Origin: Actinomycetota bacterium
GTDB lineage: Bacteria; Actinomycetota; Acidimicrobiia; Acidimicrobiales; AC-35
DNA length: 36,452 nucleotides
Assembly (NCBI GenBank): GCA_005884125.1
Contig: VAXP01000119.1
Coordinates: 81,708-118,159, forward strand
Reading direction: 5' to 3'
In this document: positions 8,956 to 11,787 of the stretch, piece by piece
Position numbering within the stretch: position 1 is the stretch's first letter
Layout: each line of letters starts with the position of its first letter
Notes under the pieces: model-generated
What the model was told of the DNA's origin: nothing
What the model saw: the letters and a program-made list of their open reading frames with translations, nothing else
Database searches by the model: none
Position numbers and translations under genes: made by a program

Positions 8956-9846
8956 CTACGACTCCCCCGTCCCGCCGCCGCGGCCCAGGAGGTCGTCCAG
9001 GAACCTGCGCAGCTCCGGGCCCAGGTCGGGCCTCTCCAATGCCAGCTCCACCGTGGCCCGCAGGTAGTCGAGCTTGTTGCCCGTGTCGTAACGGCCCCCC
9101 TCGAAGATCTGGCCGTAGACCCCTTCCTCGAGGAGCAGACCGATGGCGTCGGTGAGCTGGATCTCGCCCCCCCTTCCCGGCTGCACCCGCTCCAGGGCCC
9201 CGAAGATGGAGGGGGTGAACACGTAGCGCCCGATGACGGCCAGGTTGGACGGCGCCTCCTCCGGCGACGGCTTCTCCACGATGTCGAGGACCTTCACCAC
9301 GCGCGGCTCGACCGCCTCGGGGCGCACGCAGCCGTAGCTGCCCACCTCGGCCGGCTGCACGGGCTTGAGCGCGATCACGGAGCGACCGAGGCGCTCGTAG
9401 GCGGCGAGCATGTCCTCCAGGGCGTGGACCCGCTCGGCCATGATGTCGTCTCCCAGGAGCACGGCGAAGGGGGCGTCGCCCACGTGGTCCCGGGCCACGG
9501 AGACAGCGTGCCCCAGGCCCTTGGGCTCGCCCTGGCGGATGTAGTGGATGTCGGCCATCTCGGCGATGGCCCGGACCTCCTTCAGCTCGTCGTGCTTGCC
9601 CGCCTTCTCCAGGTAGAACTCCAGCTCGAAGGAGCGGTCGAAGTGGTCCTCCAGGCTGCGCTTGTTGCGGCCGGTGATGATGAGGATGTCGCGGATGCCG
9701 GCGCGCACCGCCTCCTCCACCACGTACTGGATGGCGGGCTTGTCTACGAGGGGCAGCATCTCCTTGGGCTGGGCCTTGGTGGCGGGGAGGAAACGCGTGC
9801 CCAGACCGGCAGCGGGGATGACCGCCTTGGCGACCGGGCTCGTCAC
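8956..9846 (-). CDS. galU: UTP–glucose-1-phosphate uridylyltransferase GalU
   Basis: GalU makes UDP-glucose from UTP and glucose 1-phosphate for envelope polysaccharides and glycolipids. The 296 residues open with KAVIPAAGLGTRFLPATKAQ and PKEMLPLVDKPAIQYVVEEA, the nucleotide-binding and lysine motifs. Further on come GLGHAVSVARDHVGDAPFAV, LLGDD and the C-terminal EGGRYDTGNKLDYLRATVEL. Length is typical. Its ATG overlaps the plsY stop by 4 bases, so the two are coupled. Confidence 0.97.
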   Translation of the reverse strand: MTSPVAKAVIPAAGLGTRFLPATKAQPKEMLPLVDKPAIQYVVEEAVRAGIRDILIITGRNKRSLEDHFDRSFELEFYLEKAGKHDELKEVRAIAEMADIHYIRQGEPKGLGHAVSVARDHVGDAPFAVLLGDDIMAERVHALEDMLAAYERLGRSVIALKPVQPAEVGSYGCVRPEAVEPRVVKVLDIVEKPSPEEAPSNLAVIGRYVFTPSIFGALERVQPGRGGEIQLTDAIGLLLEEGVYGQIFEGGRYDTGNKLDYLRATVELALERPDLGPELRRFLDDLLGRGGGTGES

Positions 9847-10460
9847 GGCCCCGGTTCTATCTCAAACCACGTCCCCGGCCGCCCCGGCCCCAGCAGTCCC
9901 TCGCGGCCGCGGGCCAGACGGCCCAGGTTGGAGGCGTGGCGGACGAGCACCAGCGCCGCGACCAGGGCGAAGCCGGCGACCTCGGTTGCGTCCCGGCCCA
10001 GCGCGGCCGCGAGCACGGGCGCGGCCAGGGCCGAGGCCAGGGAGGCCGGCGAGGCCCGCCTCGACAGGCGCACCACCAGGAACCACAGCACGGCCGTGAT
10101 GGCCACGACGGGGGGGTCGACCACGGCGACGAGGCCCACCGAGGTGGCCACGCCCCGGCCGCCGCGGAGGCGCCGCTGGGGCGGGAAGCAGTGACCCACC
10201 ACGGCCGCGGCCCCGGCGGCCAGCGCGAGGCGGTGCCCGCCCACCAGAAGGCCGGCCGCCGCGGGCAGGGCCCCCTTGACCACGTCGCCCGCGAACACCA
10301 CCAGCCCGGGGCCCGGGCCGGCGATGCGGTAGACGTTGGTGGCGCCGGGGTTGCCCGAGCCTTCGGCGGTCACGTCCCGCCCCGACCGGCGGGCCACCAG
10401 CCGGGCCGTGGGGAACGTCCCGATCAGAAAGCCGCAGGCGACGACGAGCGCGGGGACCAC
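9843..10460 (-). CDS. plsY: Glycerol-3-phosphate acyltransferase PlsY
   Basis: PlsY is an integral membrane enzyme that transfers an acyl group from acyl-phosphate to glycerol 3-phosphate, making lysophosphatidate. The 205 residues carry the three conserved loops: GSGNPGATNVYR near residue 34, DVVKGALPAAAG, and GHCFPPQRRLRGGRGVATSV, plus a late RHASNLGRLARGRE. Hydrophobic helices lie between. The GTG at 10460 has no Shine-Dalgarno sequence, but TAGCAT sits exactly 6 bases upstream, so the message is probably leaderless. It is the first gene of the run that continues through galU to glpR. Confidence 0.95.
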   Translation of the reverse strand: MVPALVVACGFLIGTFPTARLVARRSGRDVTAEGSGNPGATNVYRIAGPGPGLVVFAGDVVKGALPAAAGLLVGGHRLALAAGAAAVVGHCFPPQRRLRGGRGVATSVGLVAVVDPPVVAITAVLWFLVVRLSRRASPASLASALAAPVLAAALGRDATEVAGFALVAALVLVRHASNLGRLARGREGLLGPGRPGTWFEIEPGP

Positions 10461-10472: not shown

Positions 10473-10494
10473 GGGAGGCCGGCAGCGGGTAGAG

Positions 10495-10521
10495 TTAGCA
10501 CTCAAGGTTCGCGAGTGCCAG
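10495..10521 (+). promoter_or_regulatory. CIRCE-like element (HrcA operator) upstream of the FmdB-type gene
   Basis: TTAGCACTC, nine bases, then GAGTGCCAG. The CIRCE consensus is TTAGCACTC-N9-GAGTGCTAA; here the left arm is perfect, the spacer is exactly nine and the right arm matches 7 of 9. Actinobacterial CIRCE sites often use CCAG or CTAG at the outer positions. The site is 50 bases upstream of the FmdB-type start, and a possible -10 (TAGAGT, 10490–10495) abuts it. HrcA normally controls groES/groEL, neither of which is in the window. Confidence 0.62.
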
Positions 10522-10571: not shown

Positions 10572-10955
10572 ATGCCGACCTACGAGTACGTCTGCAAGCA
10601 GTGCGGGGAGCACGTCGAGGTGGTGCAGTCCTTCAAGGACGAACCGCTCACCATGTGCCCGCATTGCGGCGGAACCCTGCGCAAGGTCTTCGGCTCGATC
10701 GGGATCAGCTTCAAGGGCAGCGGCTTCTACCGCACCGACAGCCGACCGGCCCGCTCCGAGTCCTCCCGATCCGGTGACGGGTCCAAGTCGGCCTCGGGCG
10801 ACTCGGGCAAGTCGTCCGGGTCGAAGGCGTCGGGCTCCTCGGGCTCCTCGGGCTCGGGCGGCTCCTCGGGCTCTTCGGGCTCGGGCGGCTCCTCGGGCTC
10901 CTCGGGCTCGGGCGGCTCCTCGGGCTCGGGCGGCTCCAAGGCCGAAGCGGGCTAG
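10572..10955 (+). CDS. FmdB-family zinc-ribbon protein with Ser/Gly repeat tail
   Basis: The first 50 or so residues are the small FmdB-type regulatory zinc ribbon: MPTYEYVCKQCGEHVEVVQ, then MCPHCGGTLRKVFGSIGISF. The four ligands are Cys8, Cys11, Cys29 and Cys32. KGSGFYRTD closes the domain, as in relatives. From residue 60 to 127 the chain is serine/glycine only, with a few charges, probably disordered. The family is widespread and often annotated as a transcriptional regulator, but its real role is unproven. GGAGGG lies 11 bases upstream of the ATG. A CIRCE-like site upstream hints at HrcA control. Methylthioadenosine phosphorylase follows by 22 bases. Confidence 0.9.
   Translation: MPTYEYVCKQCGEHVEVVQSFKDEPLTMCPHCGGTLRKVFGSIGISFKGSGFYRTDSRPARSESSRSGDGSKSASGDSGKSSGSKASGSSGSSGSGGSSGSSGSGGSSGSSGSGGSSGSGGSKAEAG
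10833..10934 (+). repeat. In-frame 27-base tandem repeat encoding Ser/Gly tail
   Basis: About 3.5 copies of a 27-base unit translate to GSSGSSGSG blocks in the C-terminal tail of the FmdB-type protein. Units are nearly identical at the DNA level (one TCC/TCT difference), so copy number is likely to vary between strains by slippage. There are no spacers, so it is not a CRISPR. Confidence 0.85.
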
Positions 10956-10977: not shown

Positions 10978-11787
10978 GTGGCCGGGCCACAGGCGGAGAT
11001 CGGGGTCTTGGGCGGGAGCGGCTTCTACGAGTTCCTCCCCGACTTCACCTCGCTGACCGTGCACACCCCCTACGGAGCGCCGTCGGCACCGGTGGCCGTG
11101 GGCGAGGTGGGGGGCCGGCGGGTGGCCTTCCTCCCCCGCCACGGCCTGCACCACGAGCTGCCCCCCCACCGCATCAACTACCGGGCCAACTTGTGGGCCA
11201 TGCGGGAGCTGGGGGTGCGCCGCATCGTCGGGCCCTGCGCGGCCGGGAGCCTGCAGCCCCACGTGCACCCGGGCGAGATGGTGGTCTGCGACCAGCTCGT
11301 GGACCGCACCTGGGGCCGGTCGGACACCTTCTTCGACGGCGCCGTGGTGGGCCACACCGCCTTCGCCGATCCCTACTGCCCCGAGCTGGCCGCGGTGCTG
11401 GTCGACGGGGCCGGACGCGCCGGGGTGAGCGTCCACCCCCGAGGGACGGTGGTCGTCGTCCAGGGCCCGCGCTTTTCGACCCGGGCCGAGTCGGGCTGGT
11501 ACCGGGCCTCGGGCTGGGAAGTGGTGAACATGACCCAGTACCCCGAGGCCGCGCTGGCCCGTGAGCTGGGGATGTGCTTCGCGGGCCTGGCCCTGGTCAC
11601 CGACTACGACACCGGGCTGGAGGGGGTGGAGGGCATCGAGGCCGTCACCATGGACGCCGTCTTCGAGATGCTGCGGGCCAACGTGGCCCGCACCCGCGAC
11701 CTCCTCTTCGCCGCCATACCGGCCATCCCCGCCCGGCCCGGGTGCCGCTGTCACGAGGGGCTGGCCGCGGGGCCGCTGGGGCCCTGA
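10978..11787 (+). CDS. mtnP: S-methyl-5'-thioadenosine phosphorylase (MTAP family)
   Basis: This enzyme splits 5'-methylthioadenosine with phosphate to adenine and 5-methylthioribose 1-phosphate in methionine salvage. The 269 residues contain IGVLGGSGFYEFL (phosphate-binding glycines), FLPRHGLHHELPPHRINYRA, the MTAP/PNP block VVVVQGPRFSTRAESGWYRA, EVVNMTQYPEAALARELGM and the base-binding VTDYDTG. TQYPE and the Asp of TDYD favour 6-amino purines over inosine-type substrates. GTG 10978 lacks a clear ribosome site; TAGCGT lies 9 bases upstream, suggesting a near-leaderless start. Convergent with the TldE gene. Confidence 0.93.
   Translation: MAGPQAEIGVLGGSGFYEFLPDFTSLTVHTPYGAPSAPVAVGEVGGRRVAFLPRHGLHHELPPHRINYRANLWAMRELGVRRIVGPCAAGSLQPHVHPGEMVVCDQLVDRTWGRSDTFFDGAVVGHTAFADPYCPELAAVLVDGAGRAGVSVHPRGTVVVVQGPRFSTRAESGWYRASGWEVVNMTQYPEAALARELGMCFAGLALVTDYDTGLEGVEGIEAVTMDAVFEMLRANVARTRDLLFAAIPAIPARPGCRCHEGLAAGPLGP

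Follow-up and report, generated by a model that had tools for sequence, protein, structure and literature searches.

In Mycobacterium tuberculosis (Mtb), HrcA directly represses three Hsp60/Hsp10 genes together with ruc (Rv0991c), and the level of Ruc goes up when cells are heat shocked or hrcA is mutated (PMC7448276). Ruc binds one zinc, becomes a chaperone upon oxidation, and passes its clients to DnaKJE, and mutants in which its cysteines are replaced by serine are active without oxidation (PMC7448276). The ruc promoter carries an additional SigH site that overlaps the HrcA site (PMC7448276); ChIP-seq in Mtb gave a GGAA-GTT box as the SigH motif, and Rv0991c is SigH dependent (PMC4803200). 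Ruc is analogous to Hsp33 (HslO), in which a four-cysteine zinc center likewise unlocks a holdase upon oxidation, but there is no sequence relationship between the two, Ruc being a single small zinc ribbon with a disordered tail, and a differing activation mechanism is expected (PMC7448276).

The locus described here lies in a stretch of 36,452 nucleotides, referred to as the window, and comprises the following features:

9843 to 10460, minus strand: plsY, the divergent neighbor (open reading frame and profile matches)
10490 to 10495, plus strand: TAGAGT, probable -10 element of the fmdB promoter (TANNNT register across the class)
10495 to 10521, no strand assigned: predicted CIRCE operator for HrcA (consensus scan, genome-wide core count, and conservation before fmdB)
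10572 to 10955, plus strand: fmdB/ruc-like gene, 127 amino acids (open reading frame and profile matches; cysteine numbers as in Mtb Ruc)
10978 to 11787, plus strand: mtnP, S-methyl-5'-thioadenosine phosphorylase (NF005876, 358.5 bits; cut-off, 306)

The initial annotation had placed a CIRCE/HrcA site upstream of an FmdB-type gene, describing it as a perfect left arm, a 9-base spacer, and a right arm with two changes of a kind seen in Actinobacteria, an account that holds in each of these respects. Read on the plus strand, positions 10495 to 10521 consist of TTAGCACTC (left arm), AAGGTTCGC (spacer), and GAGTGCCAG (right arm), so that, against the consensus used for scoring, TTAGCACTC-N9-GAGTGCTAA, the left arm and the core are perfect and both mismatches fall in the right arm. 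The attribution to Actinobacteria is correct, since GAGTGCCAG is the most frequent right arm at named fmdB-CIRCE loci (81/115 among the matches listed). Nothing else in the whole window matches the CIRCE consensus at up to three mismatches; shuffled sequences gave none, and the chance expectation was 0.00. The fmdB open reading frame begins 50 bases 3' of the site. We consider it very probable that the site works as an HrcA operator, predicted to repress ruc/fmdB and probably mtnP too, and that the gene product is a Ruc-like chaperone; by analogy with M. tuberculosis, the gene would be expected to be repressed by HrcA and induced by heat in the present organism, and its product to bind zinc and act as a chaperone.

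The fmdB product matches TIGR02605 at 69.3 bits (cut-off, 31.3) and PF09723 (CxxC_CxxC_SSSS) at 60.7 bits (cut-off, 34.4), and no second FmdB/CxxC_CxxC_SSSS protein was detected when its own genome was searched with the window protein. Its zinc ribbon reads C8-x2-C11-x17-C29-x2-C32 and is followed by an FKGSGFYRTDS motif and by a C-terminal tail that is, by sequence, Ser/Gly-rich, hydrophilic, and of low complexity. The CxxC-N17-CxxC spacing is common to 146/156 CIRCE-linked proteins among the matches listed. A search for a solved structure of a relative returned only matches to Gly/Ser linkers. Cysteines 8, 11, 29, and 32, the hydrophilic tail, and the HrcA site (a predicted operator here) are all features shared with Mtb Ruc. 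The FmdB family is named after a putative regulator, most of its members have no assay behind them, and the tail of the window protein is unlike that of Mtb Ruc, all of which would fit a product that is controlled by HrcA but is an FmdB-type regulator or some other zinc-ribbon protein rather than a Ruc-like chaperone. We regard this as unlikely, given that the cysteine spacing is identical to that of Mtb Ruc, that the tail is hydrophilic and of low complexity, and that the regulon is the same. For the preferred reading of a Ruc-like chaperone, the putative activity is assigned by family, because the Ser/Gly-repeat tail is of its own kind. The proposed tie between FmdB and protein-folding stress is supported by the Mtb homologue, Ruc, which is an HrcA-repressed, heat-induced chaperone (PMC7448276).

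Conservation in relatives, the check put forward in the initial annotation, was observed both near the window's organism and across Actinobacteria. Among 28 relatives that have fmdB and were not chosen for having the site, 18 carry the operator, with zero to two core mismatches, 19 to 59 bases before the start. Counted as GCA[C/G]TC-N9-GA[C/G]TGC within 110 bases, and with the window's own genome included, the operator was present in 17/29 fmdB upstream windows compared to 0/603 control windows of the same loci. Of 395 genomes in the class, 45 showed a strict arrangement of CIRCE, gap, and MPTY start (reversed control, 0), although at least one of the 45 matches (G074) appears to be a spurious start. 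Scanning of GTDB genomes gave at least 119 loci, of which at least 115 have a P-Y-Y-C-C FmdB start and nearly all come from Actinobacteria, including Streptomyces, Micromonospora, Actinoplanes, Amycolatopsis, Lentzea, Arthrobacter, Cellulomonas, Gordonia, and Tsukamurella. A Rhodospirillales match (L094) proved to be a spurious start and was rejected as FmdB. The operator-fmdB arrangement may extend beyond the phylum, as bacterium HR29 (L078), which is not titled as an actinobacterium, has a perfect TTAGCACTC-N9-GAGTGCTAA upstream of a gene for a four-cysteine FmdB.

About one-third of the relatives with fmdB have no recognizable operator, though nearly all encode HrcA. Joint loss of HrcA and operator has little power as a test because nearly all relatives keep HrcA; the sole genome with neither HrcA nor a perfect CIRCE core, G408 (89% complete), has no site at fmdB either, which is consistent. 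At L062, L261, L274, L279, L281, L282, L286, and L287, the operator has variant arms, GCAGTC and/or GACTGC, which are symmetric on both sides in two of these loci (L062 and L274). Such variants suggest shifted HrcA specificity in some lineages.

Placement of plsY on the minus strand was also as first annotated. Its start is separated from the operator by 34 bases, so any plsY promoter would be close to the site or overlap it, and the order plsY-operator-fmdB recurs in 13/16 class loci with a divergent plsY, a set partly selected for the operator. The operator might therefore serve plsY, or both divergent genes, and tie phospholipid synthesis to heat shock. However, the operator stays 12 to 71 bases before fmdB where galU or another gene is the neighbor (among the matches listed), divergent plsY genes stand without any operator in unselected relatives (L054, L059, and L064), and the in-register -10 faces fmdB. 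Since the position of the operator tracks fmdB instead, plsY was rejected as its target; we find a role in plsY control improbable and take the gene, judging from its arrangement, to be probably a bystander outside the HrcA regulon. On the other side, mtnP begins 22 bases after fmdB, and because it occupies the same place in 17/53 class loci (gaps of -21 to 57), it may be carried along with fmdB and is possibly cotranscribed with it. The two genes are adjacent and codirectional in many Streptomyces as well.

The whole genome (3,741,061 bases in 183 contigs) contains four perfect GCACTC-N9-GAGTGC cores compared to none for a reversed control pattern. They precede groES-groEL (L002), a second groEL on the other strand (L004), hrcA (L003, where a dnaJ-like open reading frame comes after hrcA), and the fmdB gene of the window. 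HrcA itself is encoded once (E value, 2e-48), so that HrcA and operators at chaperonin genes co-occur in the same genome as the window site. The four sites would make up a complete, small HrcA regulon, of which the window site is one of four members. Its partners are those of the M. tuberculosis regulon (Hsp60/Hsp10 genes and ruc) with the addition of hrcA itself, and the locus further differs from Mtb ruc in having mtnP downstream and plsY divergent. Relative to the chaperonin regulon under CIRCE and HrcA, the palindrome, the 9-base spacer, and the promoter-overlapping position are the same, while the target here is a small, redox-type chaperone (by family) rather than a chaperonin. A reading of the palindrome as a repeat of chance or structural origin rather than an HrcA site is hardly credible, as the negligible chance expectation, the location of the other three cores, the empty control windows, and the combination of conservation with genome-wide specificity speak strongly against it.

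The promoter differs from that of Mtb ruc in having no GGAA box in register and a housekeeping-type -10, TAGAGT, instead. The operator begins with the last T of this element, and a TANNNT ending on the first or second operator T was found in 33/38 distinct promoters of the class (shuffled upstream sequences: mean, 2.1; maximum, 8). In Corynebacterium, TAGAGT is a reported SigA-type -10 (PMC3489674). The candidate -35, ATGCTA, is weak (3/6), and a strict sigma-70 scan gave no match. Outside the class, GGAA lies exactly 19 bases before a GTT that runs into the operator in 53 of 114 promoters (among the matches listed, an uneven sample weighted toward Streptomyces), whereas this SigH/SigR-type box occurs in only 1/38 promoters of the window's class, a difference that points to a different sigma factor. 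In the upstream regions of L066 to L184, the box was seen mainly in Streptomyces and Pseudonocardiales. A GGAA 19 bases before an operator-overlapping GTT was not found at the window site, and a SigH/SigR promoter was rejected there despite a SigH-like sigma factor encoded in the genome (251.0 bits, slightly below the 251.55 cut-off), which does not appear to be used at the fmdB promoter. Retention of the repressor site alongside a putative change of sigma factor, with a housekeeping-type -10 in the class and a SigH/SigR box elsewhere, appears to be new.

Three operator-linked FmdB proteins were found to lack cysteines. A search of 151 genomes of the family (f2) to which one of them belongs gave matches in 137; this family is in the same order as the window's organism and is probably Ilumatobacteraceae. 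We read 52 distinct f2 loci from more than 20 genera (L242 to L274, L277 to L296, and L063); residues 1 to 45 of FmdB contain no cysteine in 51 and a single cysteine in one. The Cys-less proteins align to the window protein with 51% identity over 77 positions and retain a KKVF-PVG-TFKGGGFYKTDS motif, and their match to TIGR02605 is weak and below the cut-off. The operator is kept in 14 of the 52 distinct f2 loci, several with the GACTGC arm change. Because Cys-to-Ser mutants of Ruc are active without oxidation, Cys-less FmdB proteins may, by analogy, be naturally always-on Ruc proteins. An FmdB almost identical to the f2 proteins is encoded at L084 (CAMDLK010000004.1), from a MAG titled Bifidobacterium breve, a label that is probably wrong. 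We lean slightly toward a history in which HrcA control of ruc/fmdB is ancestral in actinobacteria and the operator persisted through an exchange of sigma factor, with one family losing the zinc/redox center, which would presumably leave it an always-active Ruc with HrcA as the only switch in some lineages.

Under the mechanism we propose, an HrcA dimer in the unstressed cell would occupy the palindrome, overlapping the -10 and the expected transcription start, and exclude RNA polymerase; with transcription expected to start inside the operator, bound HrcA should block initiation. Misfolded protein would then withdraw active HrcA, so that groES-groEL, the second groEL, hrcA, and fmdB would all be derepressed. 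Upon oxidation, the FmdB zinc ribbon would lose its zinc and form disulfides, freeing a disordered tail that could hold unfolded clients for DnaK.

The link between HrcA and FmdB is sound yet not new in kind, as it is already established for Mtb Ruc. Within the literature covered, we found nothing joining HrcA and "FmdB" by name, because the Mtb work uses Rv0991c and Ruc. What appears to be new is the organism, how broadly the site is conserved, the difference in sigma factor, and the family without cysteines, and no publication describing either of the last two was found within an incomplete coverage of the literature. Proteins of the FmdB type occur widely, and most carry no annotation beyond zinc-ribbon or putative regulatory protein; the conserved HrcA operator supports a chaperone reading of those in actinobacteria. 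Methylthioadenosine salvage may be coexpressed with this chaperone. The conserved operator also indicates that what holds for Ruc in M. tuberculosis, control by HrcA, is the rule throughout the lineage. The Cys-less family is a natural test of the need for a redox switch.
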